Below are positions 3,221 to 63,044 of a stretch of DNA of 64,000 bases, piece by piece; within the stretch, counting starts at the first letter, position 1; the number at the start of each line of letters is the position of its first letter. The position numbers were made by a program, and so were the translations under genes. The stretch covers positions 124,001 through 188,000 of the forward strand of contig JAPJBO010000286.1 in assembly GCA_030068145.1 (NCBI GenBank), given 5' to 3'. The DNA is from Diplonema papillatum. Lineage: Eukaryota; Euglenozoa; Diplonemea; Diplonemida; Diplonemidae. The notes below the pieces were generated by a model that was not told where the DNA came from, did not search any database, and saw only the letters and a program-made list of their open reading frames with translations.

Positions 3221-3484
3221 GGCCCAGTTGGATAACAAAGGTGGCTCCATCGCAAATACACACGCCAAGATTAGGTTCCGCTCGTTATCCGGCCGATCCT
3301 TTAGAACTCAAACTTCTTCAAAACCTACAAGCTCGAGCCACCCGATTCTGTGGTCGTCTGCATCGGCAGCATCGGGGTTTTTGAATCAGCGCCTGCTTCG
3401 TGGGAAACCACCCGAAGAGGCCGCCCGTTGCAAAGTCTTCTGGGTGTAGTGCCCCCCCTTCCCGCGCAAGCGTTGAACAAAACG
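3221..3484. other. Spacer between rDNA relics
   Basis: No recognisable rRNA core or coding sequence. The stretch has moderate GC and leads into a tandem repeat shared with 4.6-4.9 kb. Confidence 0.4.
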
Positions 3485-3788: not shown

Positions 3789-3789
3789 G

Positions 3790-13235: not shown

Positions 13236-13489
13236 GCGACTTTTGCGGTTGGCGTAACTTACTGGCCAGTACTGTAAGTTCCACAGGTCATCGTTCCTAG
13301 GTTCGTGTGTGTGTGTTGGTAGGACATTTGGTGACTTGACCGCGCTGAAGGCGCAGAAAAGTGAGACTCCGATGTTTCACCTATCATAGGGTCCAGAACG
13401 TTGCCAAGCTGTTCCCCGCCAGTCAAAACTCTCCCGCCCTCCGCAGCCTGTATTCTGAGACTGAATGGAGGCCCGAATCCATCCGGGTA

Positions 13490-14125
13490 TTATTCCTTCT
13501 CGGGCTAAGAGACCAACGAAAAGAGTCGAGAGAATCGATCCCTTGTTATTCCATGCTTTATCATTCACGGCGAACGCCTGCTTTGGGCACGCTGGTTTGT
13601 TCACAGTAACATCGGTGGTCGACCCGTATGCGTATGGTGTACGCGTAAGCGCTTTCATCCCGATGAAGAGATTCCTTGCAAGGCACCACTACCACCGTTC
13701 ATGGAGCACAGGTCTTGATGCGAGGGGTTGATCCCAGCCTTCTGAATACCAGCAGTACGCTGATGCCCAGCAAACTGGGCCACCTTGCAACCTGAGCTCT
13801 GGATCCAACTACGAGCTTTTTAACAGCAGCAACATTAATATACGCTATTGGTGCTGGAATTACCGCGGGTGCTGGCACCAGTCCACCAATTGTGTTCATT
13901 GACAGGTTTAGATATCATCCATTACGAAGTACGTGTCGAGGCTATTTCTCTTCGCTGCCTCAGCAGTGTTGCTATTGGGCAATTTGCGTACCTGCTGCCA
14001 TCCTTAGATGTGGTAGCCGTTTCTCAGGCTCCCTCTCCGGAATCGAACCCTAATTCCCCGTTACCCGTTGCAGCCACGGTAGTCCACTACACTACCGTCA
14101 AAAGCTGATAGGGCAGAAGCTCTTC
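13490..14125 (-). pseudogene. 18S rRNA central-domain relic, euglenozoan-like
   Basis: Reading the minus strand: ACGGGGAATTAGGGTTCGAT, GGAGAGGGAGCCTGAGAAAC, GGCAGCAGGTACGCAAATTG, GAGGCAGCGAAGAGAAATAG, CAATTGGTGGACTGGTGCCA then GCACCCGCGGTAATTCCAGC, AATAGCGTATATTAATGTTG, AAAAGCTCGTAGTTGGATC, CAAAGCAGGCGTTCGCCGTG, AGCATGGAATAAC. This is 18S from about position 350 through V4. Flanking rRNA is absent or unrecognisable, so it is a fragment. GCACCCGCGG (13861-13880 on plus) replaces the usual GCAGCCGCGG, as in kinetoplastids and relatives. Confidence 0.88.
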
Positions 14126-14219
14126 GCGCGGGCTTGCACCGACTTGATGTCGTGAGCTATCCCTCGATTGACCTGTTTCATCCGCACACCGCTGCTATTG
14201 CTAGCGTTGGTTCTTATCT

Positions 14220-14290
14220 TGGTCAATTGCAAAACTCTCCCACCCTCCAGAGCTTGTACTGAGACTGAATGGAGGCCCAAATCCAGAAGC
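14220..14290 (-). repeat. Partial duplicate of 18S-relic flank
   Basis: CAAAACTCTCCCACCCTCCA through GAGACTGAATGGAGGCCC matches 13425-13485 with few changes, so the segment beyond V4 is present on both sides of the relic. Confidence 0.65.
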
Positions 14291-24160: not shown

Positions 24161-24586
24161 AAAGCCCCATTCTGCTTTTTTTTTTTTTTTTTTTCGACTG
24201 TCGACAATCTCAAAGGGCGTTGCTCACCCTTTCGCGGAAAGAATCCTTCGCAATCCAGGAAGCGGGATGCCGGTTATGGTTTGCCCACACGAAGTTTTGC
24301 TGTGCAAGAGGCCCCTGGACAATCAGTCCAAGCCCTGAATGTCCGCTAACTTGGATGGAGAGGAACCCTCTTGTCTGAATTTTCGTTGACACATTGACCA
24401 ATTTGGTACGTCTTTATTCATACTGAAAACCAAAAGTGTGAGGAAAGACATCAAAACGCAGCTGCAAAGACCACCCAACAGACGAACTAACAGGGACCAG
24501 CTCTTCCCACCCAAGGAAAGAAAACAACCCGCCTTGACTGTCGACCGTCGACACAAAACACGGATTCTTCAAACGAAACAGTCTTG

Positions 24587-32711: not shown

Positions 32712-33015
32712 CATGTACAACGTGTTCCTGACGTCTACGCTGCCGTCTGTTCTCCGCCGGTTCGTGGCCGACGAAGTCGAGGTGCCGCCGGGGGGCTTGC
32801 GGGCAGCCTGTGCGCCGCGGCGCCGCTCGACAGCGCCGCGCACAACCCGCTCGCGCTGCTGCTGGCGAACATCCCGCTGCGCCAGCGGACGATCCCCTAC
32901 TTCGCCCCCGCCGACGCCGTGAGGCTGCTGGAGTACGCGGCGGCGGTGCGCGCATCGGTCGCGGCCCTCACCCGACCCCCCAACTCAGCAAATGAAGCGG
33001 AACCCCCAACTTAGC
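32712..33015 (+). pseudogene. Partial tandem copy 1 of the 33.6-kb gene
   Basis: From AACGTGTTCCTGACGTCTAC to CGCATCGGTCGCGGCC, nearly identical to 33812-34070 of the full gene. Then it departs into CGACCCCCCAACTCAGC instead of the rest of the gene. A short deletion removes the EVVA codons. Unit spacing to the next copy is 549 bp. Confidence 0.9.
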
Positions 33016-33224
33016 GCAGTGATCCCCCCAACTAGATGATTGTCCTATGCGATTGTCCTACTTTCTACAAATCCGGGGGTCACCCGCAAAGTGATACCCC
33101 CAACTAGATGATTGTCCTATGCGACTGTCCTGTACATCAAATTCGCACACCTACTTACTAGAAATCCTGTACAGACACTCGAAACCCCGGATTTTCAAAC
33201 GAATCCTCACTGTACAAAACTTGT

Positions 33225-33552
33225 CACGCAGCTGGCGCTGTTCTACGAAGCAGCGAAGCACATTGACAACGTGTTCCTGACGTCTACGCTGCCGTCTGTT
33301 CTCCGCCGGTTCGTGGCCGACGAAGTCGAGGTGCCGCCGGAGGTGGTGGCCGGGCTTGCGGGCAGCCTGCGCGCCGCGGCGCCGCTCGACAGCGCCGCGC
33401 ACAACCCGCTCTCGCTGCGCCAGCGGACGATCCCCTACTTCGCCCCTGCCGACGCCGTGAGGCTGCTGGAGTACGCGGCGGCGGTGCGCGCATCGGTCGC
33501 GGCCCTCACCCGACCCCCCAACTCAGCAAATGAAGCGGAACCCCCAACTTAG
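33225..33552 (+). pseudogene. Partial tandem copy 2 of the 33.6-kb gene
   Basis: From GTCACGCAGCTGGCGCTGTT to CGCATCGGTCGCGGCC. Has the EVVAGLAGSL codons but lacks those for LLANIP. Ends at the same breakpoint as copy 1 and carries the same downstream segment. Spacing to the full gene is 545 bp. Confidence 0.9.
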
Positions 33553-33641
33553 CGCAAAGTGCCAACTAGATGATTGTCCTATGCTATTGTCCTACTTTCT
33601 ACAAATCCGGGGGTTACCCGCAAAGTGATACCCCCAACTAG

Positions 33642-35153
33642 ATGATTGTCCTATGCGTGTCCTGTACATCAAATTCGCACACCTACTTACTAGAAATCCT
33701 GGGTTTTGAGTGTCTGTACAGTGTACAGACACTCGAAACCCCCGGATTTTCAAGCGAATCCTCACTTGTCACGCAGCTGGCGCTGTTCTACGAAGCAGCG
33801 AAGCACATCGACAACGTGTTCCTGACGTCTACGCTGCCGTCCGTTCTCCGCCGGTTCGTGGCCGACGAAGTCGAGGTGCCGCCGGAGGTGGTGGCTGGGC
33901 TTGCGGGCAGCCTGCGCGCCGCGGCGCCGCTCGACAGCGCCGCGCACAACCCGCTCTCGCTGCTGCTGGCGAACATCCCGCTGCGCCAGCGGACGATCCC
34001 CTACTTCGCCCCCGCCGACGCCGTGAGGCTGCTGGAGTACGTGGCGGCGGTGCGCGCATCGGTCGCGGCGCTGCCCAGGGCGACGCAGAAGGGCCCGCCC
34101 CCCAGGCGCAAGCAGCCGCTCAAAATCCTCGAGCTGCTGCAGCGCCGCCTCACCGAACACTGCCACGCCCCGCACGTCCTCCGCCGCATGACCCCCGCCC
34201 TCGGCGGGCGGCTGCTCGCTGCGGGCATCGAGTCGCGCGCCCTGACCGACATCATCTTGAACACCGAATCCAGCGACTCTCCCGACGAAGCCACCGCCGC
34301 CGGTGTCCTGCACTACCTCCGGCTGAACTCTGCCAAGGACGACAGTGACACCACACGCGCCGTCTCGATCGTCCTTCGGTATTTGGGGGTCACCGACCCA
34401 CTGCAGGGCGCGCAAGCATTTGCGGCCTATGGTCCGATTTTGGACTGCGTGGCGGACGTCGACGGGGTGTGGAAAAGGGGCGCGGGGATGCTCTCGGTGA
34501 CGGACGTGACGCTGGGGCACTGCGAAGAGTGGAAAGACGGAATTTTGCGGAGCAAAATGACGCTGCTCCTGTTTGTGCTCGCGAGGTTGTACCGCAGGGG
34601 GGAGGGAGACCTCGTCGTGCGTCTCGCGGCCACGGTCTTCGAGGGGTCGGCGTTGCTGAGCCGTGGAGTGAGGATGCCTGACCTCGAAGCACTCGCTGCG
34701 ATCCTCGCCTCGTGCCCAACTCCCCCGCCGCTGCCCCTGACGCAGCGCCTGCTCGACCAAGCGAGGTGGCGCAGCGGGCAGGTAGCCCGGCCCATACAGT
34801 TCGCGGCGAACGTCGCGTGGCTCGCGCAGGGCGGGCGATCACTCACCGCACCGCCGGACGTCGCCTTCGCCGACCTGCTTCCCACGGCCTGGAGGCCGCA
34901 GAACCAGGTTGAGCTCGTCTATTTGCGGCCGTTCGACGCCGTGCGCTGCCTCGTCTGCTTTCGCCGGTACGCGGAATACCGCAGGGACAGCCAAGTGCCG
35001 GAGTCGAGCACAGTGCCTTCGCACATCGTCAAAGAGCTCCTGCGCCGCGCCAGTCTCAACCGACCGGTAGATCCAGCTGTTCTGGCTTACATCAACGGGT
35101 CGACTCCCGAGATGCGATCTCAATCCGGTAGATCCAGCTGTTCTGACCGGTAG
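33642..35153 (+). CDS. Unrecognised helical protein, N-terminus uncertain
   Basis: A 503-residue open frame from an ATG at 33642. The convincing part starts near VTQLALFYEAAKHIDNVFLT (about 33767); the first ~40 codons lie in repeat-like sequence including a hairpin, so the true start may be an upstream exon. The body is Leu/Ala/Arg-rich with many short amphipathic helices (LLANIPLRQRTIPYFAPADA, LKILELLQRRLTEHCHAP, LLLFVLARLYRRGEGDLVVR), the texture of a helical-repeat protein such as organellar RNA-binding or mitoribosome-associated factors, but no motif assigns it. The stop at 35153 lies inside a 22-bp minisatellite. A second copy of the C-terminal codons after the minisatellite ends in a different stop at 35352, probably the original terminus. 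Confidence 0.7.
   Translation: MIVLCVSCTSNSHTYLLEILGFECLYSVQTLETPGFSSESSLVTQLALFYEAAKHIDNVFLTSTLPSVLRRFVADEVEVPPEVVAGLAGSLRAAAPLDSAAHNPLSLLLANIPLRQRTIPYFAPADAVRLLEYVAAVRASVAALPRATQKGPPPRRKQPLKILELLQRRLTEHCHAPHVLRRMTPALGGRLLAAGIESRALTDIILNTESSDSPDEATAAGVLHYLRLNSAKDDSDTTRAVSIVLRYLGVTDPLQGAQAFAAYGPILDCVADVDGVWKRGAGMLSVTDVTLGHCEEWKDGILRSKMTLLLFVLARLYRRGEGDLVVRLAATVFEGSALLSRGVRMPDLEALAAILASCPTPPPLPLTQRLLDQARWRSGQVARPIQFAANVAWLAQGGRSLTAPPDVAFADLLPTAWRPQNQVELVYLRPFDAVRCLVCFRRYAEYRRDSQVPESSTVPSHIVKELLRRASLNRPVDPAVLAYINGSTPEMRSQSGRSSCSDR
33703..33746. other. Long near-perfect hairpin in upstream segment
   Basis: GGGTTTTGAGTGTCTGTAC, AGT, GTACAGACACTCGAAACCC: a 19-bp stem with one mismatch. The other two copies of the upstream unit lack it or keep only one arm. 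Confidence 0.85.
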
Positions 35154-37398: not shown

Positions 37399-39462
37399 AT
37401 GTACCGCAGCGCGTTGGTGCGGGCGTCGAGGGGCGGGTTGCTCGTCGCAGGGGGTGGGGTGTCCGGGAGCTTGCGGGCGGAGGGGTGCAGTTTCAGCACG
37501 CGTTCTCAGGGCGGGTTGCTGATCACGAGTAGTGGAGTGTCCTCCGGGAGCTTGCGGACGGGGGCTTGCACTTTCAGCACGCGTTCGCACGGCGGGTTGC
37601 TGACCGCGGGTGGTAAGATGTCTGGGAGCTTGCGGACGGGGGCGTGCGCTTTCAGCATGCGTTCGTTGCTGATCACGGGTAGTGGAATGTCCGGGAGCTT
37701 GCGGACAGGGATCAGCACGCGTTCGCACGGCAGGTTGCTGATCACGGGTGGTGGGGCATGCACTTTCAGCACGCGTTCACACGGCGGGTTGCTGGCCGCG
37801 GGTGGTAAGATGCCTGGGAGCTTGCGGACAGGGGCGTGCGCTTTCAGCATGCGTTCGCACGGCGGGTTGCTGATCACGGGTGGTGGAGTGTCCGGAAGCT
37901 TGCGGACGGGGGCGTGCACTTTAAGCACGCGTTCGCACGGCGGCCCCCGCGCCCTCGCGCCGCGGCCGGGCTGCGCCCGCCAGCTGCGCGGCGGGACGGC
38001 CGGGGCCGACGCCGTCTTCGCGCCGCCGCCGAAGCCGGCTGCCCGCGCGGCCGCGGCGGACGCGGGGCCCGAAACCGGCCTCGTCCCGGGGGACGCCGCG
38101 GGGGCTGCGAAGCACGAGGATCCGCCCCGGGAAACGCCGGGAGACGACGCACCTGGAACGGAAGCACCCCCCGCGGAGGACTTCCGGCTTGACCGCCGTG
38201 TGTACAGCGTCGCGATGTCGTCGCTCCTGACGGGGATGGGCATCGGCGTCATCATCCCGGTGATGCCGCTGTTCGCACAGAGCATCGGGATTTCGCCCGC
38301 GGGACTGGGCCTGGTGATCTCCGCCATGGGTTTTGCCCGCCTCGCATGCAACCTGCCGGCGGCGTGGGCCGCGGATAAGTACGGCAGGAAGCCGTTGATG
38401 GTCATGGGCCCCGCCCTCTCGTCAGTCGGGATGCTCCTCTGCTCGGTAGCCTCGTCTCTCGAGGAGCTGCTGGCCATGCGCACCCTCAGCGGCGCCGGTG
38501 GGTCGTTCCAGATGACCGGGAGCCAGCTGTACCTGGCGGACATCTCCCGGCCGGAGAACAGGGCGCGCACGATGGCCCCGCTGGCGGCCGCGTTCTCCAC
38601 GGGGGCCGCGACCGGCCCGATCGTCGGCGGCATCATCGCCGCCGAGTGTGGGCTTGCCGCACCGTTCCTCTTCGTCGGCGCCGCGCTGCTCTGCGCGAGC
38701 GTTAACAACTACGCGATGCTCACCGAGACCCTCCCGAAGCAGCCGTCCCCGCCACCTGGCGCGCAACCCGGGTCCCTCGCGAGCGTGGCCGCTTCCGTGA
38801 AAGCGACGACGACCGCGTGGAAACCGCTGTTCCGATCACCGAGCATGCGTGCGCTGCTGGCCTTGCACACTGCGTACTGGGCGTGCAGTACAGGCGCGAT
38901 GTTCATGCTTCTCCCGCTGGTGGCGGCAGACTCTTTTGGGATGGGAGCCGCGGAGATCGGCCAGGGGTTCACCGTGTACGCGCTGATCAACGTGCTGGGG
39001 TCTCAGCCAGCGGCGTGGGCCTCCGACAAGTACGGGCGGAAGGCTGTCGTCGGGCCGGCGTGTCTCGCCATGGCGGCGTCCGCGCTGCTGATCCCGTTCG
39101 CGACGACGTGGGTCGAGCTCTCGGGGCTCTGGCTGCTGTGGGGCTGCGGCGCGACCTGCCTGGGCACGACGCCGACGGCCTACGCGACGGACCTGCACGA
39201 CTCGTCGATCCGCAGCCAGGCGCTCGCCCTCCTGCGGTCGGCGGGCGACGTGGGGCTGATGCTGGGCGCCGGGACCATCGGCTTGATAGCCAAAGTGGCC
39301 GGCATCACGGCCGGGTTCTGGTCCGTGTCGTTCTGCATCGCCTTCGTCGGCGTCAACTTCATGCTCCACGCCCGCGAAACCGTCGGCAAGTACAAACAGC
39401 CCGACCCCGACTTGAAAACACCGCTCAACCTGGTGAACGCGAAAAAACTCGACTCGGAGTGA
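37399..39462 (+). CDS. MFS transporter (drug/H+ antiporter-like) with repeat-built N-terminus
   Basis: 687 residues from the ATG at 37399. Residues ~1-12 (MYRSALVRASRG) are Arg-containing and presequence-like. About 180 residues then consist of seven variants of a 26-residue unit (GGLLITGGGVSGSLRTGACT type), followed by an Ala/Pro-rich linker to ~260. From FRLDRRVYS on, a 12-helix major facilitator domain is clear. It has motif A as AADKYGRKPLMVMGP after helix 2 and again as ASDKYGRKAVVGP after helix 8, Gly-rich helices (GAGGSFQMTGSQLYLADI, GAATGPIVGGIIAAECG), and a short hydrophilic tail ending KKLDSE. It resembles TetA-like drug:H+ antiporters; substrate unknown. The N-terminal repeats may be organelle targeting sequence amplified in tandem. 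The 3' third is duplicated just downstream. Confidence 0.9.
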   Translation: MYRSALVRASRGGLLVAGGGVSGSLRAEGCSFSTRSQGGLLITSSGVSSGSLRTGACTFSTRSHGGLLTAGGKMSGSLRTGACAFSMRSLLITGSGMSGSLRTGISTRSHGRLLITGGGACTFSTRSHGGLLAAGGKMPGSLRTGACAFSMRSHGGLLITGGGVSGSLRTGACTLSTRSHGGPRALAPRPGCARQLRGGTAGADAVFAPPPKPAARAAAADAGPETGLVPGDAAGAAKHEDPPRETPGDDAPGTEAPPAEDFRLDRRVYSVAMSSLLTGMGIGVIIPVMPLFAQSIGISPAGLGLVISAMGFARLACNLPAAWAADKYGRKPLMVMGPALSSVGMLLCSVASSLEELLAMRTLSGAGGSFQMTGSQLYLADISRPENRARTMAPLAAAFSTGAATGPIVGGIIAAECGLAAPFLFVGAALLCASVNNYAMLTETLPKQPSPPPGAQPGSLASVAASVKATTTAWKPLFRSPSMRALLALHTAYWACSTGAMFMLLPLVAADSFGMGAAEIGQGFTVYALINVLGSQPAAWASDKYGRKAVVGPACLAMAASALLIPFATTWVELSGLWLLWGCGATCLGTTPTAYATDLHDSSIRSQALALLRSAGDVGLMLGAGTIGLIAKVAGITAGFWSVSFCIAFVGVNFMLHARETVGKYKQPDPDLKTPLNLVNAKKLDSE
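37432..37955 (+). repeat. 78-bp coding minisatellite
   Basis: GCGTTCGCACGGCGGGTTGC and GGAGCTTGCGGACGGGGGC recur about seven times, with two shortened units. Every length change keeps the reading frame, so selection on the frame is likely. Confidence 0.9.
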
Positions 39463-39654: not shown

Positions 39655-40040
39655 ATGCCTGCCTCGCCATGGCGGCTTCCGCGCTGCTGATCCCGTGCGC
39701 GACGACATAGGTCGAGCTCTCGGGGCTCTGGCTGCTGTGGGGCTGCGGCACGACCTGCCTGGGCACGACGCCGACGGCCTACGCGACGGACCTGCACGAC
39801 TCGTCGATCCGCAGCCAGGCGCTCGCCCTCCTGCGGTCGGCGGGCGACGTGGGGCTGATGCTGGGCGCCGGGACCATCGGCTTGATAGCCAAAGTGGCCG
39901 GCATCACGGCCGGGTTCTGGTCCGTGTCGTTCTGCATCGCCTTCGTCGGCGTCAGCTTCATGCTCCACGCCCGCGAAACCGTCGGCAAGTACAAACAGCC
40001 TGAAAATACCGCTGAACCTGGTGAATGCGAAAAAAGAATA
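39655..40040 (+). pseudogene. Broken copy of the MFS 3' third
   Basis: CTCGCCATGGCGGC(T/G)TC through GCCGGGTTCTGGTCCGTGTC to GGTGAATGCGAAAAAA duplicates 39062-39445 at roughly 97-98% by eye. It carries an in-frame TAG near 39708, a 10-bp loss near the end and no 5' part, so it is not expressed as a transporter. Confidence 0.92.
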
Positions 40041-40173: not shown

Positions 40174-40469
40174 AACTCGACTTGGAGTGAACACTCCTCC
40201 TGTTCGCCTCGATCTCGCGGCGATTCCACTCGGTTAATCGCCACACACATTCCTTGCGTTCCAATCCTAACTTACCCTCCGACGACCAGCAGCTCGTTAC
40301 TGCCGCATTTTCGCGGCAGATCTCTCCAATCGATCAGCGGTTCCAAAAGATGCATGGCCACCCGGGGGGCGGCGATCTCTGGTGAAATGCGGTACCGTCC
40401 GGCCTCTCGAAACGACGGGAGGAAGCTTCACCGAAAACGTCAGTTCGCGTGGGCCCACACCGTCCAGAA
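40174..40469. other. Intergenic; includes MFS 3' flank similarity
   Basis: AAACTCGACTTGGAGTGAAC at 40172-40191 repeats the last codons and stop of the MFS gene (39446-39465). The E copy therefore sits inside the duplicated MFS 3' end. Confidence 0.7.
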
Positions 40470-41272
40470 CACCAGTCACACCGTCCAGCCGACCACGAAC
40501 ACCAGTCACACCTTCCAGCCGACCACGAACACCAGTCACACCGTCCAGCCGACCACGAACACAGTCACACCTTCCAGCCGACCACGAACACCAGTCACAC
40601 CTTCCAGCCGACCACGAACACCAGTCACACCGTCCAGCCGACCACGAACACCAGTCACACCGTCCAGCCGACCACGAACACCAGTCACACCGTCCAGCCG
40701 ACCACGAACACAGTCACACCTTCCAGCCGACCACGAACACCAGTCACACCGTCCAGCCGACCACGAACACCAGTCACACCGTCCAGCCGACCACGAACAC
40801 CAGTCACACCGTCCAGCCGACCACGAACACAGTCACACCTTCCAGCCGACCACGAACACCAGTCACACCTTCCAGCCGACCACGAACACCAGTCACACCG
40901 TCCAGCCGACCACGAACACCAGTCACACCTTCCAGCCGACCACGAACACCAGTCACACCTTCCAGCCGACCACGAACACCAGTCACACCTTCCAGCCGAC
41001 CACGAACACCAGTCACACCGTCCAGCCGACCACGAACACCAGTCACACCTTCCAGCCGACCACGAACACCAGTCACACCTTCCAGCCGACCACGAACACC
41101 AGTCACACCTTCCAGCCGACCACGAACACCAGTCACACCTTCCAGCCGACCACGAACACCAGTCACACCGTCCAGCCGACCACGAACACCAGTCACACCT
41201 TCCAGCCGACCACGAACACCAGTCACACCTTCCAGCCGACCACGAACACCAGTCACACCGTCCAGCCGGCCG
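40470..41272 (+). repeat. 30-bp minisatellite, about 26 copies
   Basis: Unit ACCAGTCACACCGTCCAGCC plus GACCACGAAC. Most copies are 30 bp; four are 29 bp (one C lost, e.g. near 40560 and 40710). ACCGTCC and ACCTTCC variants are interspersed. With no stop codon in any forward frame, three overlapping long open frames result; all are repeat translations. Confidence 0.97.
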
Positions 41273-44654: not shown

Positions 44655-44825
44655 AAGAACTTTGGAAAGAGGGTTAAAAGTCCCTGAAACCGACGGGTGG
44701 TAAGAGTTGGAGCGGAGAGATGCGTCTCCGTATCTCAATCATTGCTCCTTCGCCGGGGGTGTTTGTTTGGAACGTCTGGACCCATTCGGACCGTCCAAGC
44801 AGTTTCTGTCGCGAACCGCCGAATT
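44655..44825 (+). pseudogene. Degenerate 28S rRNA fragment
   Basis: AAGAACTTTGGAAAGAGGGT, then CCCTGAAACCGACGGGTGGT and TCATTGCTCCTTCGCCGGGG match 4011-4165 of the larger 28S relic, with more divergence than the 46.1-kb copy. Confidence 0.75.
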
Positions 44826-46144: not shown

Positions 46145-46375
46145 AGATGCAACCTCCGGAGGCCGATAGCGAACAAGTACAGTGACGGAAAGACGCAAAG
46201 AACCTTGAAAAGAGGGTTAAAAGTACCTGAAACCGATGAGTGGTAAGAGTTGGAGATGCGTCCAAGTCTTAATCATTGCTCCTTCACTGGGGTTTTATGG
46301 TTGAGACGTCTGGACCTATTCGGATCGTCCAAGCTTATGTTGCGAGACGGCTTGCCGGCTGCCTCAGTTTTGCTT
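46145..46375 (+). pseudogene. 28S rRNA fragment
   Basis: CGGAGGCCGATAGCGAACAA, AAAGAACCTTGAAAAGAGGG, GAAACCGATGAGTGGTAAGA, GTTGAGACGTCTGGACCTAT: matches 3968-4195 of the larger relic at about 95% by eye. Confidence 0.85.
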
Positions 46376-50475: not shown

Positions 50476-51759
50476 ACGCATCGACTGTGCGCACTCGGTC
50501 ATGGCTGTACGCGCTGCGGTTGAGCAGCACCACCGTCTTCGTACAGCGCAACAGTCTACACTGCATTCTGTGAGTCCCAAACCCCTGCTGGGGGCAGCGG
50601 TTCTGGAGTGTCTCAACGAAGGCGGTTTCAAGGTGCCGGTTCGTGAAGGGCGTTGCAGGGGAATTGGAGCAGGCCTCACGCACTATGGGGCTTTTGTTGA
50701 CCCCTTCCTCCGGTACGGCTCGTGCATCTCCATCTCAAACAAAAGGTGACACCAAATCGCAAAATAATTGGGAAGGTGTGATGAGTGGTTCGGGTTAGTT
50801 GAGGAGTGCTGCCTTTTACCGGAATATTACTAGTTGTAGAAGCCAGCCCCACCCCGATTTCTCCCGGTGTCGATTCGAGGTGTTCGTGCTCATTTAGCCA
50901 TGCGTCTTGCTCCTATTCCCTCAGTTAACTGCAAGTATTGTGCCCTGAAATTGCATGTATCGTCCCTGACCCTCGGTCTCTGGGTGCCTTCTTTGGGTCG
51001 CCTGTTTTCTGTAGCTCGTTGGTATCCGGCCGGAGTGTTGTGCCCCTTCGTCGTTCGCCATCACTCCGTCACCGCTCTCTTCTCTGCGGTTTGACTCTGT
51101 TGTGGTCTGCGTCTCCTGCGTAGCGTCTGCTTCGATCGGTTCGCACTCGCCTCTCTCTTCTTGGTCCGTCCCGGCAATGTGATCAGCCCTGAGTATGGCG
51201 CACCCCAGCGGCAACTGGTGGACACTGGCTAGGTCCAGTTTGTGTCTGTGAAAGCTGGCGGGTCCAGTTCTATGGTGAAAACTGGACCCAGCGACGTGGT
51301 TGCTGTATCCGGTTCTTGGTGAAAGGACGGGACCCACGTACCAGCCCTGAACTTTGCGATTGTACCCCCCCTGAACCCATAATCTTTGATTTCTCGTTCG
51401 GGGAGTGGCCAAAATGACTTCCCTCGATCCTGAGACGGCATCGTGTGCAGCAGTGGACTACGACGGTATCTAATCATCTTGGATCCCCACGATCTCGTTC
51501 TCGATTAATGAAGACGTTCTTGTCGAATGCTTTTTGCAGAAGTTCGTCGTCCTACGATCTAAGAATTGAGTGCGCAAGGAGGGCAAGGCAAACCGATTCC
51601 CTGGGGTAGAATGTGATGGTCTAGGCCGTTTTCTGAGGCGGACCAGATTATCGCGGCTCGCCAGCTTGCGATACGGTTCTTCAGCATCGCCGTCTCAAGC
51701 GCATGATGCCCGGTATCTGCCAGAAAGGTGGCGCACACACAAAACCTCCTCATACGAAC
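50476..51759. other. Intergenic, nothing recognised
   Basis: A minus-strand open frame of 163 codons (50921-51412) lacks an ATG head and any recognisable domain. 51235-51330 contains two GGTCCAGTTCTATGGTGAAA-like arms. No gene called. Confidence 0.45.
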
Positions 51760-52299: not shown

Positions 52300-53158
52300 C
52301 TCGTGCGGAGGTGCGAAGGAAGTCGAGTATAGTTGTTAACGGCCGGTGCAACCTGACGTCTCTGTGAAACCCTGATGATTGTCCACCATGTCTGTGGCTG
52401 TCTGTCTTTTTCCGTTCCATTCTTGCGAGGAATTGAAAGCCTCTTGCCACAAAGCGAGCCAGCGGAGGGGAACGCGCAAGCAGGCCCCGATGGAAGCAGG
52501 AATTGAAGCAAGAGAGACGAGAGACGGCGAGCAGACCCAGACGTTGGCCATATTCGCTACTACAACCAAGATCTGTACTCATCCATGCTCCATCGAGGCT
52601 CACGCCACCGACTCCGCGGCGTGGACAACACACTCCAACGCACGCCTGGCTACCAGCACGCGGCCAACTATGGGTGGATCGCTTGAGCATCATCCATTTT
52701 CGGGACCGGTGCATTCGGCAGGTGAACACACTCGTTATCGGAGCCGACTTCCATGGCCACCGTCTCCGTGTTCGCATGTGCAGGGTGACGCTGAAGCCGT
52801 GTGTGTTCGCATGTGCAGGGTGACGCTGAAGCCGACGGCGAACCGCCGTCCAAATGCATAGGCATCCGATTCCAGTCACGCAGACACACGGCAGCCCCCA
52901 ACCGGGGTTTCAGGCTCAAACCTTTTTGCTCAGTCAGCCAAAGTGCTGGTTGGTACCACGCACTTGAAGGAGTCCACCACGAACGTACCAGCCGAGAACA
53001 GCCTTATCAGGGAGCCTCCCAGGGCAGAGGAGAACCTGCGGCGGTGAAGGAACGAAGCTAACTTGCGTTTCTGGTGCAACCCTTCGTCAAAGCCCTTGAC
53101 GGCTGTGACACGTGCACAATACCGGGCGTTGCCGTGGATCGCACTGAGTAAAGGGAGT
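52300..53158. other. Region upstream of the tandem array; weak ORF
   Basis: An ATG ORF of 157 codons (52388-52861, plus) spans a 35-bp direct duplication (TTCGCATGTGCAGGGTGACG, twice, at 52770-52832). Another frame and the minus strand are also open, so none is called with confidence. 52900-53150 looks like non-coding or eroded coding sequence. Confidence 0.35.
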
Positions 53159-53169
53159 CCACGTAGCGG

Positions 53170-53430
53170 GGACTACGCGGACGCGATGCGGCAGCGGAAG
53201 CGGCGCGAGCAGACCTGCCAGAGGGCGGGCGGCGACGACACGTCCTCTCCGAAGCAGCAGCCGCCAGCCGCCAGCCGCAGCAAAAAGCGGGGCAGCAGCA
53301 CGAAGCGGGGGAACAAGCCGCCCGAAGACGCGCGACCCGTCGGCGGCGCCGCCCGCGAAGAAAAAGCCGTCGGCGACGAAGAAGCGGTCCTCCAGCAAAC
53401 CCAGTGCGCACGCCCTTTGGGACTAGCCCC
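53170..53430 (+). pseudogene. Truncated first unit of the ARL2BP-gene array
   Basis: Begins inside the unit at GACTACGCGGACGCGATGCG and lacks the 5' third. It carries its own substitutions (ACCTGCCAGAGG, GAAGCAGCAG) and a small deletion. It is the most diverged unit, as expected at the edge of an array homogenised by unequal exchange. Confidence 0.9.
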
Positions 53431-53525
53431 CCAGGCGCATTACCATAAACTAATATTTCCCCCCCTCTTTTCTGTTGAGTTGTTCTTGATTTTTGGTATT
53501 ACAGGCCTGGGGGTTTTTCGGGGGG

Positions 53526-53912
53526 ATGGCCGCCTCCGACAGCGACTCGATTAGTACGACCAGTTCCCAGGCGGACCGAGAACGCGATGAGCGCGACGAA
53601 GAGCTGCGGCTGCAGCAGGAGCAGCAGACGGACTACGCGGACGTGATGCGGCAGCGGAAGCGGCGCGAGCAGACCTACCAGAGGGCGGGCGGCGACGACG
53701 CGTCCTCTCCGAGCGAGCCACCAGGGCCGAAGAAGCAGGAGCCGCCAGCCGCCAGCCGCAGCAAAAAGCGGGGCAGCAGCACGAAGCGGGGGAAAATGCC
53801 GCCCGAAGACGTGCGACGCGACCCGTCGGCGGCGCCGCCCGCGAAGAAAAAGCCGTCGGCGACGAAGAAGCGGTCCTCCAGCAAACCCAGTGCGCACGCC
53901 CTTTGGGACTAG
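53526..53912 (+). CDS. Array unit 1: intact short ORF (128 aa)
   Basis: Encodes the N-terminal basic, disordered part of the downstream protein (MAASDSDSISTTSSQADRER to KKPSATKKRSSSKPS) and ends AHALWD. The last six codons replace the continuation seen in the complete gene. The BART domain is absent. The same full-type unit recurs at 54939-55322 and 57743-58126, each with one Arg-Ala dipeptide changed. Whether any is translated is unknown; each has its own acceptor-like CTTGATTTTTGGTATTACAG 32 nt before the ATG. Confidence 0.5.
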   Translation: MAASDSDSISTTSSQADRERDERDEELRLQQEQQTDYADVMRQRKRREQTYQRAGGDDASSPSEPPGPKKQEPPAASRSKKRGSSTKRGKMPPEDVRRDPSAAPPAKKKPSATKKRSSSKPSAHALWD

Positions 53913-56900
53913 CCCCCCAGGCGCATTACCATAAACTAATATTTCCCCCCCTCTTTTCTGTTGAGTTGTTCTTGATTTTTGGTATTACAGGCCTGGGGGT
54001 TTTTCGGGGGGATGGCCGCCTCCGACAGCGACTCGATTAGTACGACCAGTTCCCAGGCGGACCGAGAACGCGATGAGCGCGACGAAGAGCTGCGGCTGCA
54101 GCAGGAGCAGCAGACGGACTACGCGGACGTGATGCGGCAGCGGAAGCGGCGCGAGCAGACCTACCAGAGGGCGGGCGGCGACGACGCGTCCTCTCCGAGC
54201 GATCCACCAGGGCCGAAGAAGCAGGAGCCGCCAGCCGCCAGCCGCAGCAAAAAGCGGGGCAGCGCCCGAAGACGTGCGACGCGACCCGTCGGCGGCGCCG
54301 CCCGCGAAGAAAAAGCCGTCGGCGACGAAGAAGCGGTCCTCCAGCAAACCCAGTGCGCACGCCCTTTGGGACTAGCCCCCCAGGCGCATTACCATAAACT
54401 AATATTTCCCCCCCTCTTTTCTGTTGAGTTGTTCTTGATTTTTGGTATTACAGGCCTGGGGGTTTTTCGGGGGGGATGGCCGCCTCCGACAGCGACTCGA
54501 TTAGTACGACCAGTTCCCAGGCGGACCGAGAACGCGATGAGCGCGACGAAGAGCTGCGGCTGCAGCAGGAGCAGCAGACGGACTACGCGGACGTGATGCG
54601 GCAGCGGAAGCGGCGCGAGCAGACCTACCAGAGGGCGGGCGGCGACGACGCGTCCTCTCCGAGCGACCCACCAGGGCCGAAGAAGCAGGAGCCGCCAGCC
54701 GCCAGCCGCAGCAAAAAGCGGGGCAGCGCCCGAAGACGTGCGATGCGACCTGTCGGCGGCGCTGCCCGCGAAGAAAAAGCCGTCGGCGACGAAGAAGCGG
54801 TCCTCCAGCAAACCCAGTGCGCACGCCCTTTGGGACTAGCCCCCCAGGCGCATTACCATAAACTAATATTTCCCCCCCTCTTTTCTGTTGAGTTGTTCTT
54901 GATTTTTGGTATTACAGGCCTGGGGGTTTTTCGGGGGGATGGCCGCCTCCGACAGCGACTCGATTAGTACGACCAGTTCCCAGGCGGACCGAGAACGCGA
55001 TGAGCGCGACGAAGAGCTGCGGCTGCAGCAGGAGCAGCAGACGGACTACGCGGACGTGATGCGGCAGCGGAAGCGGCGCGAGCAGACCTACCAGGCGGGC
55101 GGCGACGACGCGTCCTCTCCGAGCGAGCCACCAGGGCCGAAGAAGCAGGAGCCGCCAGCCGCCAGCCGCAGCAAAAAGCGGGGCAGCAGCACGAAGCGGG
55201 GGAAAATGCCGCCCGAAGACGTGCGACGCGACCCGTCGGCGGCGCCGCCCGCGAAGAAAAAGCCGTCGGCGACGAAGAAGCGGTCCTCCAGCAAACCCAG
55301 TGCGCACGCCCTTTGGGACTAGCCCCCCAGGCGCATTACCATAAACTAATATTTCCCCCCCTCTTTTCTGTTGAGTTGTTCTTGATTTTTGGTATTACAG
55401 GCCTGGGGGTTTTTCGGGGGGATGGCCGCCTCCGACAGCGACTCGATTAGTACGACCAGTTCCCAGGCGGACCGAGAACGCGATGAGCGCGACGAAGAGC
55501 TGCGGCTGCAGCAGGAGCAGCAGACGGACTACGCGGACGTGATGCGGCAGCGGAAGCGGCGCGAGCAGACCTACCAGAGGGCGGGCGGCGACGACGCGTC
55601 CTCTCCGAGCGACCCACCAGGGCCGAAGAAGCAGGAGCCGCCAGCCGCCAGCCGCAGCAAAAAGCGGGGCAGCAGCACGAAGCGGGGGAAATAGCCGCCC
55701 GAAGACGTGCGACGCGACCTGTCGGCGGCGCTGCCCGCGAAGAAAAAGCCGTCGGCGACGAAGAAGCGGTCCTCCAGCAAACCCAGTGCGCACGCCCTTT
55801 GGGACTAGCCCCCCAGGCGCATTACCATAAACTAATATTTCCCCCCCTCTTTTCTGTTGAGTTGTTCTTGATTTTTGGTATTACAGACCTGGGGGTTTTT
55901 CGGGGGGGATGGCCGCCTCCGACAGCGACTCGATTAGTACGACCAGTTCCCAGGCGGACCGAGAACGCGATGAGCGCGACGAAGAGCTGCGGCTGCAGCA
56001 GGAGCAGCAGACGGACTACGCGGACGTGATGCGGCAGCGGAAGCGGCGCGAGCAGACCTACCAGAGGGCGGGCGGCGACGACGCGTCCTCTCCGAGCGAT
56101 CCACCAGGGCCGAAGAAGCAGGAGTCGCCAGCCGCCAGCCGCAGCAAAAAGCGGGGCAGCGCCCGAAGACGTGCGACGCGACCCGTCGGCGGCGCTGCCC
56201 GCGAAGAAAAAGCCGTCGGCGACGAAGAAGCGGTCCTCCAGCAAACCCAGTGCGCACGCCCTTTGGGACTAGCCCCCCAGGCGCATTCCCCCTCTTTTCT
56301 GTTGAGTTGTTCTTGATTTTTGGTATTACAGGCCTGGGGGTTTTTCGGGGGGATGGCCGCCTCCGACAGCGACTCGATTAGTACGACCAGTTCCCAGGCG
56401 GACCGAGAACGCGATGAGCGCGACGAAGAGCTGCGGCTGCAGCAGGAGCAGCAGACGGACTACGCGGACGTGATGCGGCAGCGGAAGCGGCGCGAGCAGA
56501 CCTACCAGAGGGCGGGCGGCGACGACGCGTCCTCTCCGAGCGAGCCACCAGGGCCGAAGAAGCAGGAGCCGCCAGCCGCCAGCCGCAGCAAAAAGCGGGG
56601 CAGCGCCCGAAGACGTGCGACGCGACCCGTCGGCGGCGCCGCCCGCGAAGAAAAAGCCGTCGGCGACGAAGAAGCGGTCCTCCAGCAAACCCAGTGCGCA
56701 CGCCCTTTGGGACTAGCCCCCCAGGCGCATTACCATAAACTAATATTTCCCCCCCTCTTTTCTGTTGAGTTGTTCTTGATTTTTGGTATTACAGGCCTGG
56801 GGGTTTTTCGGGGGGATGGCCGCCTCCGACAGCGACTCGATTAGTACGACCAGTTCCCAGGCGGACCGAGAACGCGATGAGCGCGACGAAGAGCTGCGGC

Positions 56901-59561
56901 TGCAGCAGGAGCAGCAGACGGACTACGCGGACGTGATGCGGCAGCGGAAGCGGCGCGAGCAGACCTACCAGAGGGCGGGCGGCGACGACGCGTCCTCTCC
57001 GAGCGAGCCACCAGGGCCGAAGAAGCAGGAGCCGCCAGCCGCCAGCCGCAGCAAAAAGCGGGGCAGCGCCCGAAGACGTGCGACGCGACCCGTCGGCGGC
57101 GCCGCCCGCGAAGAAAAAGCCGTCGGCGACGAAGAAGCGGTCCTCCAGCAAACCCAGTGCGCACGCCCTTTGGGACTAGCCCCCCAGGCGCATTACCATA
57201 AACTAATATTTCCCCCCCTCTTTTCTGTTGAGTTGTTCTTGATTTTTGGTATTACAGGCCTGGGGGTTTTTCGGGGGGGATGGCCGCCTCCGACAGCGAC
57301 TCGATTAGTACGACCAGTTCCCAGGCGGACCGAGAACGCGATGAGCGCGACGAAGAGCTGCGGCTGCAGCAGGAGCAGCAGACGGACTACGCGGACGTGA
57401 TGCGGCAGCGGAAGCGGCGCGAGCAGACCTACCAGAGGGCGGGCGGCGACGACGCGTCCTCTCCGAGCGACCCACCAGGGCCGAAGAAGCAGGAGCCGCC
57501 AGCCGCCAGCCGCAGCAAAAAGCGGGGCAGCGCCCGAAGACGTGCGATGCGACCTGTCGGCGGCGCTGCCCGCGAAGAAAAAGCCGTCGGCGACGAAGAA
57601 GCGGTCCTCCAGCAAACCCAGTGCGCACGCCCTTTGGGACTAGCCCCCCAGGCGCATTACCATAAACTAATATTTCCCCCCCTCTTTTCTGTTGAGTTGT
57701 TCTTGATTTTTGGTATTACAGGCCTGGGGGTTTTTCGGGGGGATGGCCGCCTCCGACAGCGACTCGATTAGTACGACCAGTTCCCAGGCGGACCGAGAAC
57801 GCGATGAGCGCGACGAAGAGCTGCGGCTGCAGCAGGAGCAGCAGACGGACTACGCGGACGTGATGCGGCAGCGGAAGCGGCGCGAGCAGACCTACCAGGC
57901 GGGCGGCGACGACGCGTCCTCTCCGAGCGAGCCACCAGGGCCGAAGAAGCAGGAGCCGCCAGCCGCCAGCCGCAGCAAAAAGCGGGGCAGCAGCACGAAG
58001 CGGGGGAAAATGCCGCCCGAAGACGTGCGACGCGACCCGTCGGCGGCGCCGCCCGCGAAGAAAAAGCCGTCGGCGACGAAGAAGCGGTCCTCCAGCAAAC
58101 CCAGTGCGCACGCCCTTTGGGACTAGCCCCCCAGGCGCATTACCATAAACTAATATTTCCCCCCCTCTTTTCTGTTGAGTTGTTCTTGATTTTTGGTATT
58201 ACAGGCCTGGGGGTTTTTCGGGGGGATGGCCGCCTCCGACAGCGACTCGATTAGTACGACCAGTTCCCAGGCGGACCGAGAACGCGATGAGCGCGACGAA
58301 GAGCTGCGGCTGCAGCAGGAGCAGCAGACGGACTACGCGGACGTGATGCGGCAGCGGAAGCGGCGCGAGCAGACCTACCAGAGGGCGGGCGGCGACGACG
58401 CGTCCTCTCCGAGCGACCCACCAGGGCCGAAGAAGCAGGAGCCGCCAGCCGCCAGCCGCAGCAAAAAGCGGGGCAGCAGCACGAAGCGGGGGAAATAGCC
58501 GCCCGAAGACGTGCGACGCGACCTGTCGGCGGCGCTGCCCGCGAAGAAAAAGCCGTCGGCGACGAAGAAGCGGTCCTCCAGCAAACCCAGTGCGCACGCC
58601 CTTTGGGACTAGCCCCCCAGGCGCATTACCATAAACTAATATTTCCCCCCCTCTTTTCTGTTGAGTTGTTCTTGATTTTTGGTATTACAGGCCTGGGGGT
58701 TTTTCGGGGGGGATGGCCGCCTCCGACAGCGACTCGATTAGTACGACCAGTTCCCAGGCGGACCGAGAACGCGATGAGCGCGACGAAGAGCTGCGGCTGC
58801 AGCAGGAGCAGCAGACGGACTACGCGGACGTGATGCGGCAGCGGAAGCGGCGCGAGCAGACCTACCAGAGGGCGGGCGGCGACGACGCGTCCTCTCCGAG
58901 CGATCCACCAGGGCCGAAGAAGCAGGAGTCGCCAGCCGCCAGCCGCAGCAAAAAGCGGGGCAGCGCCCGAAGACGTGCGACGCGACCCGTCGGCGGCGCT
59001 GCCCGCGAAGAAAAAGCCGTCGGCGACGAAGAAGCGGTCCTCCAGCAAACCCAGTGCGCACGCCCTTTGGGACTAGCCCCCCAGGCGCATTCCCCCTCTT
59101 TTCTGTTGAGTTGTTCTTGATTTTTGGTATTACAGGCCTGGGGGTTTTTCGGGGGGATGGCCGCCTCCGACAGCGACTCGATTAGTACGACCAGTTCCCA
59201 GGCGGACCGAGAACGCGATGAGCGCGACGAAGAGCTGCGGCTGCAGCAGGAGCAGCAGACGGACTACGCGGACGTGATGCGGCAGCGGAAGCGGCGCGAG
59301 CAGACCTACCAGAGGGCGGGCGGCGACGACGCGTCCTCTCCGAGCGATCCACCAGGGCCGAAGAAGCAGGAGCCGCCAGCCGCCAGCCGCAGCAAAAAGC
59401 GGGGCAGCGCCCGAAGACGTGCGACGCGACCCGTCGGCGGCGCCGCCCGCGAAGAAAAAGCCGTCGGCGACGAAGAAGCGGTCCTCCAGCAAACCCAGTG
59501 CGCACGCCCTTTGGGACTAGCCCCCCAGGCGCATTACCATAAACTAATATTTCCCCCCCTC

Positions 59562-59598
59562 TTTTCTGTTGAGTTGTTCTTGATTTTTGGTATTACAG
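59562..59598 (+). promoter_or_regulatory. Pyrimidine tract and AG acceptor before the ARL2BP-like gene
   Basis: CTCTTTTCTGTTGAGTTGTT, then CTTGATTTTTGGTATTACAG; preceded by ACTAAT at ~59543, a branch-point-like motif. The AG is ~20 nt before the ATG at 59620. Because the same leader is copied in front of every unit, it probably marks the 5' end of the mature message (spliced-leader site) or the end of a first intron. Confidence 0.6.
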
Positions 59599-59619
59599 GC
59601 CTGGGGGTTTTTCGGGGGG

Positions 59620-61071
59620 ATGGCCGCCTCCGACAGCGACTCGATTAGTACGACCAGTTCCCAGGCGGACCGAGAACGCGATGAGCGCGACGAAGAGCTG
59701 CGGCTGCAGCAGGAGCAGCAGACGGACTACGCGGACGTGATGCGGCAGCGGAAGCGGCGCGAGCAGACCTACCAGAGGGCGGGCGGCGACGACGCGTCCT
59801 CTCCGAGCGAGCCACCAGGGCCGAAGAAGCAGGAGCCGCCAGCCGCCAGCCGCAGCAAAAAGCGGGGCAGCAGCACGAAGCGGGGGAAGAAGCCGCCCGA
59901 AGACGTGCGACGCGACCCGTCGGCGGCGCTGCCCGCGAAGAAAAAGCCGTCGGCGACGAAGAAGCGGTCCTCCAGCAAACCCAAGGCGCACGCCCTCTCC
60001 TCCACCCTACCGCCCGGCGCCGCGCCTTCCAAGTCCACTAAGGCCGCCGACCCCCTCTCCCAGACGACCGTCCAACCACGTATTGACGCCGGTCCCCCCG
60101 AATCCCTTCCCGCGCGGCCCCACACGCAGTCGTCGCCACCCAACGGCGCCGCGGGGAAGGGAAAACCGCACCCGGGGCTGGTCCCCAGCCGCGGGTGGGA
60201 GGCTGCGCGTTCAGACCCCGTGCGGGAGAATGCGGCAGACGAGCGTGGGGCGCTCTTCGTGGCAGGGGGTGTCGGCGATGAGGGGGTTTCCGGTGTGGGG
60301 GAGAGCGGTGCAACGAACGTGCGCCGAACGGCGTACGACTTCGAGTATGACCCGCTGCTGGATTTCAACCCGGCGGGGCTCGCGAGCTTCGTTGAGGCGC
60401 AGACCGAAGGGGACGGCCACCTGCCCGACTGGAACGTGGTCAAGCGGACCAAGCGCAAGGGCAAGCGTCACCACGCGTGGAAAAGCCAGCTCCCGGCCAC
60501 CTCCGCCGCGGCCGCCGCATCGCCGGCGGCGTCGGACGTGATGGCGCGAATCATGTTCGAAGAGGAGAAGAACCGGAAGTTCGACCTGGCGCAGTCGGTG
60601 CTCGAGGAGATGGTCGAGTCGGACGCGCGGTTCTACGCCCTGCAGGACCGCTTCAAAAACGCGCACTGCGGCGTCTTCGACGACGCCGACGAGAACAAGC
60701 TGGAGTACACCCCCCTGTTCAAAGAGTGGGTCCGCCTCATGGACGGCTACACGACCGCCAAGCTCAACAACCGCATCGTCGGCTTCGACCTAGAAGAGTT
60801 CATGGGCATCCTCGAAGAGCGAAGGGACGAGGTGTCGGCAGGCCTCTGGAGCTTCCTGCTGTCGTTCACCGATTTCGAGGCGTTCAAGCAGGCGATGCTT
60901 GACCACAAAGCCGGCGTCGAGGACGACCTCAGGCTGGATCCCGAACTGAATGGCATCATCGACGAGGGGCAGAAGATCATGGACGATTGCTTCGCACAGG
61001 CAGAATCGGAGCGGGAGCGGACACTGGCTGACGAGGCTGTCAGCCGGGCGGAGGACCGCATGGGATTCTGA
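59620..61071 (+). CDS. ARL2BP: ARL2BP/BART-domain protein with long disordered N-terminus
   Basis: 483 residues. Residues ~320-445 match the BART domain of ADP-ribosylation-factor-like 2 binding protein: FDLAQSVLEEMVESDARFYA, then DENKLEYTPLFKEWVRLMDG, LNNRIVGFDLEEFMGILEER, RDEVSAGLWSFLLSFTDFEA, FKQAMLDHKAG. Human ARL2BP has the same ENKL-YTP-F-E, DEV and LL-FTDF-AFK pattern. The domain binds GTP-loaded ARL2/ARL3 and, in other eukaryotes, acts at centrosomes, cilia or mitochondria, and also occurs in CFAP36. The first 300 residues are low complexity: an acidic/Gln-rich start (residues 1-50), Lys/Arg/Pro/Ser-rich repeats to ~130, then a Gly/Pro-rich linker. Human ARL2BP is only ~163 residues, so the extension is unusual. 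This is the last and only complete unit of the 53-59.6 kb array. Continuous frame; start chosen at the ATG after the acceptor. Confidence 0.9.
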   Translation: MAASDSDSISTTSSQADRERDERDEELRLQQEQQTDYADVMRQRKRREQTYQRAGGDDASSPSEPPGPKKQEPPAASRSKKRGSSTKRGKKPPEDVRRDPSAALPAKKKPSATKKRSSSKPKAHALSSTLPPGAAPSKSTKAADPLSQTTVQPRIDAGPPESLPARPHTQSSPPNGAAGKGKPHPGLVPSRGWEAARSDPVRENAADERGALFVAGGVGDEGVSGVGESGATNVRRTAYDFEYDPLLDFNPAGLASFVEAQTEGDGHLPDWNVVKRTKRKGKRHHAWKSQLPATSAAAAASPAASDVMARIMFEEEKNRKFDLAQSVLEEMVESDARFYALQDRFKNAHCGVFDDADENKLEYTPLFKEWVRLMDGYTTAKLNNRIVGFDLEEFMGILEERRDEVSAGLWSFLLSFTDFEAFKQAMLDHKAGVEDDLRLDPELNGIIDEGQKIMDDCFAQAESERERTLADEAVSRAEDRMGF

Positions 61072-63044
61072 TTCGATGCGGCAAAATAAAGGCAAAAATT
61101 TCGAGTGCCCGCGTGTACCGAAAAGCTGGATAGCCCAGTAGCGGACTGTCGAAGGACGTAGACGAAACACCTGCCTGGAACGTGGTCAAGCGGACCAACG
61201 CTGTAGGTGCAAAAAGGGATAGTTGAAGGAAACACTTGCTCTTTGTCGTGTTAGTCACTGGACAGACCAAGACTTCACCGCTCGAGCTTTTCTTTGTCTG
61301 CACACACACCATCCTGCAGAATCCAGCAGCTAGTACTGATGGGGGAGCCGTTGGCATGCGGCATGTCTCTCAAGAGCCGCAAAGCGCGCTGTTGCGGGCT
61401 ACAACACAGGGACCAGTGCAAAAACGCGCACTGCGGCTTCTTCTCTTCAAAGACGTTCGATGCGAACACATGTGCATGCTCGCTGATTGAACGCGTCCAA
61501 GGGTGCCGTACGCCATTCCTTGCGGAGATTCGATACGAGAAAAAGCAGACATTGGCGCCCCGTTGCCGTATCGAATCTTCGCGATCTAGCAACCCCGCTT
61601 GCCATTTCTAGCCTTTCTCGCTCTGGCACGATTGCCTGTTACACGTTCCAACGGAGGCTGCCCGCCCAGTTTTTGCAGAGCTCTGAAATGAGCGGTCAAG
61701 TCGCATTGCCTTTTTTTGTGCTCCGAAGAGAACAAGGAACCCCAGAATATGGAGTTAGCACGGCGCCAGGACTCTGCGTAGGCTGCCTCACCCGGTGATG
61801 TCGGTGATCCCTCGACGAATCGCAACAACTTCGTCCGCTTGGACCCGGCTGACCGGATTGTGCTCAGCGCAAGCTCCAATAAGCCACGCCTTTTGATGCT
61901 TTGCTTTGGGCGTCGACAACAACGGCTTGGTTAACAATGCATTGTAGGTACTAAAAATTAGTAGTTGGCAGCGTACTACATGAAACTTACCAAAGCAGGT
62001 GAGCTCCGCTAGTGCGCACAAACAAAAAGGAATCATTGTTTGTGCTTGTAAAAGGAGAGGCCTCGCTGCTCATCTGTGAGATCCGTGCCGAAGTAACCAC
62101 CGGCCGCTACCTTTGGCCCGTTAGAAATGGGAAAGGGAAGTTCGAGAAAAACCACCGCAACAACAAAGACCGTTCTCTTTCAATAAAAAGAAAATAGAAG
62201 AGGCCGACGGCAGTAGAAACAAATAAAGCTTTTTAAGTGGCACGCTCTCGGGTGCTACCCCGTGGCGGCTTCCTGGGTTCCTTTTTTGCACCGTTGTGCC
62301 GTCAACGAAGTATCAGCTGAGAACCGTTGCGCGCAAGAGGAACCTAGCCGACTCATGAAACCCCAGCATTTCGCTTCCTGAAAGCGTTGCCAAGTGGAGT
62401 GCAACTCCTGCGGGTAAACGGTTGAGAGTAACTGACTGTGGATGCACCATCTTTTTTTAATTGAAGACGCATGGTTGGAACAAAGAGATTCTGGTCACGC
62501 TCAGTTTGTCGGTCAAGGGCCTGCTTAAGTAGAATCACACCGCATACCCTCCGTACTGGTGTCCAGTCAGACGAGGGTGAAACTCAGCCACACATTAGGG
62601 GTTTCTTAGTCTGTTGACAGTGAAGTCCGTCTCCTTGAGCAGCAGCCGTCGTCCCGTCATACACAGACAAGTAAAACGACGGTTCCTTTTGTTGCGACTT
62701 CCCCCACCTACGCCTCCGCGTGCACATTGCGCAAACGTCAGACTAAAGCAGGGAGTTCTTTCCCCGCCAACACGTTAGTCCGTCCCCGTGGTTGCCGTTT
62801 CGCCAGATAAGCAGAGACAGAAGTAATCTGTTGGTCCATTCACGCGAAGCTGCGCGGAGGCAAATCGAGTTCCACGAGGCAAGCATTCCGCGAGTGGCGT
62901 CCGTTTCCACCGTTTCCAAACCCCGTCAGGGCGGGCTGGGCAGAGACGCATTTTACCCTAGTCGGGGGTGGGCGGGAAGCGAGAGAGAAGCCCCACACAA
63001 GAAAGAAACCCTAAAAAAGGACATCCACACGCTCAACCACGCAA
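61072..63044. other. Intergenic, mostly unrecognised
   Basis: 61150-61205 repeats CTGGAACGTGGTCAAGCGGA from the ARL2BP-like gene (60430-60450), and 61415-61440 repeats AAAACGCGCACTGCGGC from 60656. Small pieces of the gene are therefore scattered downstream. 61845-61925 is a diverged family F fragment (GATTGTGCTCAGCGCAAGCT). No other gene recognised. Confidence 0.55.

Follow-up and report, generated by a model that had tools for sequence, protein, structure and literature searches.

The array upstream of the ARL2BP-like gene

The window analysed here, a 64-kb stretch of Diplonema papillatum DNA, corresponds to bases 124001–188000 of a contig 247,655 bp long, one of 2910 in a 271-Mb genome. 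At 53171–59497, it encompasses head-to-tail copies of the 5' end of one gene that extend over 6.3 kb upstream of the sole complete gene. The array consists of one 5'-truncated copy and 13 partial units, each with a leader, a TTACAG motif and an ATG, followed by the complete gene for a 483-aa protein (Table 1).

Table 1 Features of the array and its surroundings, in window coordinates
Feature	Position	Strand	Remarks
rRNA-gene matches	2934–3260, 3782–4564, 13489–14229, 24201–24276, 44655–44814
rRNA-gene matches, continued	46156–46374, 51354–51567, 52550–52764, 62236–62411, 62737–62846
28S rRNA gene fragment	52550–52764	+	90% to the 28S of this genome; outside the repeat, ~400 bp from its left end
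Unit 0	53171–53403	+	leftmost copy; begins within the coding part; no leader, no ATG; most diverged
Unit 1	53404–53889	+	101-bp leader ending in TTACAG; ATG 53526; ORF 128 aa
Unit 2	53890–54352	+	leader; ATG 54012; 23-nt deletion, frameshift
Unit 3	54353–54816	+	leader; ATG 54476; 23-nt deletion
Unit 4	54817–55299	+	leader; ATG 54939; in-frame ORF, 127 aa
Unit 5	55300–55785	+	leader; ATG 55422; codon 91 is TAG
Unit 6	55786–56249	+	leader; ATG 55909; 23-nt deletion; A, not G, after TTACAG
Unit 7	56250–56693	+	19-bp leader deletion, CTAAT-like branch site lost; ATG 56353; 23-nt deletion
Unit 8	56694–57156	+	counterpart of unit 2 in block B; 1 substitution
Unit 9	57157–57620	+	counterpart of unit 3, identical
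Unit 10	57621–58103	+	counterpart of unit 4, identical
Unit 11	58104–58589	+	counterpart of unit 5, identical
Unit 12	58590–59053	+	counterpart of unit 6 in block B; 1 substitution
Unit 13	59054–59497	+	counterpart of unit 7 in block B, sharing its 19-bp leader deletion; 1 substitution
Six-unit block A (units 2–7)	53890–56693	+	2804 bp
Six-unit block B (units 8–13)	56694–59497	+	2804 bp
Full-gene leader	59498–59598	+	ends in GGTATTACAG; same sequence as the unit 1 leader; predicted acceptor for SL trans-splicing
Complete ARL2BP-like gene, single ORF	59620–61071	+	483 aa; ATG 59620, stop 61071
BART domain	60598–60921	+	PF11527, E 3.2e-21; PDB ARL2BP 2k0s, E 1.5e-20
Short copy of gene-body sequence 3' of the stop	61168–61198	+	89% to 60418–60452
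Short copy of gene-body sequence 3' of the stop	61410–61443	+	88% to 60645–60678

For the array, TRF reported a period of 463 with 14.2 copies and 95% matches (53331–59996). A 27-nt core of the acceptor and leader occurs 14 times from 53497 to 59591 (13 exact occurrences and one with a single mismatch) and is absent from 100 shuffles; the array is not due to chance. A DNA search of the entire 271-Mb genome with the unit, in which very common words were skipped, gave 15 matches, all 15 inside the array. The junction CCCAGTGCGCACGCCC is present in all 14 upstream copies, whereas the full gene carries CCCAAGGCGCACGCCCTCTC instead.

The preliminary description of this locus, in which the 5' end of a gene is amplified in tandem ahead of one complete ARL2BP-like gene, with a precise junction, is borne out, and so are the extent and copy number that it gave. 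It also listed fourteen units, the last one complete; the array and the single full gene stand, but the exon segment is present in 15 copies rather than 14 because the leftmost copy, which lacks the leader and the ATG, also counts.

The leader is 101 bp long in 11 partial units and the full gene, and 82 bp long in units 7 and 13; the distance between TTACAG and the ATG is 21 or 22 nt in the 13 leader-bearing partial units and 21 nt in the full gene. Unit 0 differs by 6–8 substitutions from the copies that retain a 23-nt segment deleted in others and by 4–7 from the copies without this segment, and additionally has 21-nt and 5-nt deletions. The two six-unit blocks differ at 3 of the 2805 compared positions (53983–56787 against the positions 2804 bp downstream), and given this near-identity, the latest large growth step was probably a duplication of six units.

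The complete gene

The match of the predicted protein to the BART domain (PF11527) scores 76.1 bits, against a Pfam gathering cutoff of 23, and covers positions 8–115 of 116. With E-values of 1.5e-20 to 8.5e-20 for the ARL2BP chains 2k0s, 3doe and 2k9a, compared to only 0.0024 for CFAP36, the product appears to be an ARL2BP-type rather than a CFAP36-type BART protein, the former being by far the better match. It shares with ARL2BP the nearly end-to-end BART domain but has ~310 residues N-terminal of this match, whereas solved chains of ARL2BP comprise 130–165 residues. In the protein library, where the 7986 candidates sharing the most words were scored, the only relatives were the protein itself and one 319-aa EukProt protein that is 54% identical over the BART part; a second protein search gave this EukProt protein alone. 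Downstream of the gene lie two 31–34 bp fragments of its own body, 88–89% identical to their sources (Table 1).

Reading frames and divergence among the units

Among the 13 ATG-bearing partial units, units 1, 4 and 10 keep the frame and terminate as ...ALWD* just beyond the junction, units 5 and 11 have TAG as codon 91, and the other eight (units 2, 3, 6, 7, 8, 9, 12 and 13) have a common 23-nt deletion after codon ~84 that shifts the frame. The deletion or the early TAG is found in 10 of these 13 units, whereas the full-length unit is intact. The units do stop or shift frame, as the preliminary description had it; its further statement that each upstream unit has a TTACAG leader, an ATG and ~130 codons holds for the TTACAG and the ATG of 13 units but not for unit 0, nor for the ORFs, which range from 90 to 194 codons.

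Gaps aside, units 1–13 are at least 98.9% identical; the differences among them amount to nine substitution changes and a few indels that are shared between units. Codons 1–52 are invariant in all 14 ATG-bearing copies, and only one of the nine changes among units 1–13 falls within the 278 nt at the 5' end of the 486 (post hoc P = 0.006). This invariance might point to constraint, although recent homogenisation is the simpler reading of the 5' identity.

The units might be functional, either as decoys, whose spliced leader (SL) acceptors and start codons would modulate the expression of the gene, or as a source of N-terminal Lys/Ser-rich peptides. Such a role would fit the retention of TTACAG and ATG in 13 of 13 leader-bearing partial units, the unchanged 5' codons, the concentration of variation in the 3' part, and the 7 of 13 ORFs that are complete before the next acceptor. 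We nevertheless consider it improbable: the other 6 of 13 ORFs run beyond the next acceptor, the frames diverge after codon ~84, recent homogenisation accounts for the 5' identity as well, and an array already published for this genome, that of DIPPA_19968, is reportedly absent from mature mRNA (PMC10161547).

Putative splicing signals

At every junction there is a GT whose distance to the end of TTACAG is 101 (or 82) nt. CTAAT and pyrimidine runs are discernible by eye between the two, except that CTAAT is absent from the two 82-nt leaders. These features would suit ordinary repeated exons of one longer cis-spliced gene, with introns of the form GTGCGC...TTACAG, 82 or 101 nt long, as in intron gain by tandem duplication, for which the potato RdRp gene is a precedent (PMC4974935). 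The introns of D. papillatum are mainly GT-AG (PMC12621601). YTRAY branch motifs are reported in just 2.4–15.8% of the introns of six other diplonemids (PMC12621601), so the CTAAT in the leaders counts as weak evidence.

We considered ordered exon chains, with TTACAG as the acceptor and either the shared junction GT or the position one base later as the donor. Through the shared GT, none of the 8191 chains reaches the gene stop in the BART frame, and only the donor moved one base later, which has no GT, yields in-frame chains (195 of 8191); furthermore, GTGCGC looks, in our judgement, like a poor donor. The ordinary repeated exons that the preliminary description had named as the reading to be set against its own accordingly fail through the shared junction GT, and we reject them as very improbable. 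Considering the organism, the better reading of TTACAG is an SL trans-splice acceptor, in preference to a cis acceptor.

Genomic context

The 21-nt word that we take to be the diplonemid SL has 613 exact matches in the genome (324 + 289), and its reversed control has none, as fits a diplonemid genome. Set against the 110 SL RNA genes reported for D. papillatum (PMC10161547), this number suggests many reinserted SL-tagged copies. At one locus (L042, G000:C91:17001-20000), the SL sequence within positions 1–400 abuts an AT-rich stretch or ORF with an ATG and is not obviously an SL RNA gene; L042 has four SL words 1994 bp apart, and an Rfam search of this locus gave no match. Several genes lie in one long ORF, which, together with the acceptor-like leader close to the ATG and the rRNA, points to a trans-splicing protist.

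The genome contains near-complete 28S and complete 18S genes, and on one contig, rDNA matches are spaced at 7.62–7.63 kb in most pairs and at 7.85 kb in one. For the published D. papillatum assembly (~280 Mb, 6181 contigs), rDNA units of ~7.6 kb and about 3600 scattered 28S pieces are described (PMC10161547), and the observed spacing and scattered 28S/18S fragments fit these values. The window itself includes ten rRNA-gene matches that are 73–99.9% identical to the genome's own 18S/28S (Table 1). One of these, near the left edge of the array, first looked like an LTR because of the ~7.6-kb spacing of its copies; this candidate was rejected, the high-copy sequence being 28S rDNA.

Similar arrays elsewhere in the genome

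Tandem repeats make up 0.3–34% of each of 20 sampled 10-kb pieces of the genome. The same design as in the BART array was found in two more cases, one in the window and one in a sampled piece (L028, G000:C205), that is, in at least one of the 20 pieces, L028 being the one examined closely. In the window, an array of ~2.4 units of 545–549 bp (32717–34072) lies ahead of a 503-aa ORF (33642–35153). In L028, a 1235-aa ORF follows partial copies of the 5' end of a gene (2929–5015): ATG 3956 and ATG 4377 open ORFs of 73 and 72 aa, both ending in GAC TAG, and the gene itself reads 1221 aa from ATG 4795 or 1235 aa from ATG 4753. This piece also contains two further copies, a truncated one at 3677 and, at 2929–3054, an older, diverged one with the ATG. 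The L028 partial ORFs share their GAC TAG ending at the junction with three units of the BART array (1, 4 and 10).

Two generalisations were tried and rejected. GGACTAG, as a shared recombination motif, is present at the junctions of the BART array and L028 but not, by eye, at the junction of the 32.7-kb array, and the rule that the most distal copy is truncated inside the CDS fits the BART array and the array at 32717 but is broken by the diverged ATG copy of L028.

One duplication of the 3' type was encountered as well, the end of an MFS gene (39058–39447) being copied at 39657–40035. With too small a sample, and a window selected on account of its array, we make no claim of a 5'-end bias.

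Repeats of other kinds include repeats of 69–81 bp, with lengths divisible by three, in the N-terminal region of the ORF of this same MFS transporter (window 37432–37943), a 30-bp unit present 27 times inside a 393-aa ORF (window 40460–41268), and, in the piece L010 (4994–7198), tandem repeats of ~495 and ~618 bp within which lie two 121-bp 18S rRNA fragments.

Proposed origin and tolerance of the array

Inflation of a single copy during assembly is hardly credible: the near-identity of the 2804-bp blocks would be compatible with it, but several units are marked by private indels and substitutions, the array lies inside its contig, and the published assembly is PacBio-based, with the comparable DIPPA_19968 array verified by reads (PMC10161547).

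In our view, the locus is very likely a repeat-bounded gene, in which tandemly duplicated, homogenised and neutral 5'-end debris precedes an intact gene that is rescued by SL trans-splicing at the last acceptor. The pre-gene leader and the first ~360 nt of the coding sequence would have been duplicated in tandem, and this segment would then have been expanded and homogenised by unequal exchange, with the six-unit block duplication, which is apparent in the sequence, probably coming late.

The last TTACAG would be the SL acceptor that cuts the mRNA of the gene free of everything upstream. The array would be tolerated because trans-splicing at this acceptor supplies the intact gene with an mRNA of its own, such that the upstream copies would be harmless and drift. 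The genes of D. papillatum are described as forming co-oriented (unidirectional) clusters that are probably co-transcribed, and the SL is added to essentially all mRNAs by trans-splicing (PMC10161547); because of this combination, the last acceptor would be enough for the intact gene to keep working. The upstream acceptors may yield short SL-capped by-products, none of which is needed.

A broader proposition, which we regard as speculative and rather unlikely, is that SL trans-splicing makes the genome permissive for '5' stutter', the arrays constituting a recurrent, fast-evolving diplonemid class whose acceptors possibly set mRNA levels by leader competition. Under this permissive reading, leader-plus-CDS segments could amplify without limit upstream of needed genes because any acceptor immediately ahead of the last ATG gives a clean mRNA. 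The BART array, which keeps a record of successive duplication steps, first of the unit and then of the six-unit block, is a clean test case for whether trans-splicing shields genes from upstream duplications.

Comparison with known systems

The potato RdRp gene acquired an intron through a tandem duplication that spanned an intron/exon border (PMC4974935). As in that case, the copied segment in the BART array covers the acceptor signals and the start of the next exon, so that an exonic GT precedes the copied acceptor. The potato gene, however, underwent a single duplication, and its intron is in use (PMC4974935), whereas the BART array has ~14 copies, its donor looks weak, the frame through this donor does not work, and its acceptor is probably employed for SL trans-splicing.

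For D. papillatum itself, dozens of gene models with adjacent repeats have been described, many of these repeats being tandem copies of the 5'UTR and CDS (PMC10161547). The BART array matches this repeat-bounded design, in that the tandem repeats hold part of the 5' region of the gene (5'UTR and CDS) and abut the gene. Given that the kind is already published for this genome (PMC10161547), the BART array is a further, longer member: it is ordinary for this genome, a large new example and not a new phenomenon. The preliminary description knew of no case for this family, which may hold for this gene family only, the kind as such having been described for the genome (PMC10161547). In the literature on ARL2BP with tandem repeats in algae or with Diplonema, the array of this gene was not found. 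The architecture was found described in just one diplonemid genome paper, and the BART array adds a large, young and well-structured example.

The longest case named in the text of that paper, DIPPA_19968, has 12–13 upstream copies of ~400 bp, nearly 5 kb in total, in a PacBio-supported array, the most distal copy of which is the most diverged (PMC10161547). The two loci have in common an upstream array of ~400-bp units, the greatest divergence in the most distal copy, and an intact gene at the downstream end. They differ in the gene involved and in size, the BART array comprising 13 leader-bearing partial copies and one truncated copy over 6.3 kb, as opposed to nearly 5 kb; in the similarity of the copies, at least 98.9% among units 1–13 (gaps aside) compared to 71–96% for DIPPA_19968; and in the six-unit block duplication of the BART array. 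What is new here is the 6.3-kb length, the six-unit block duplication and the explanation by permissive trans-splicing.
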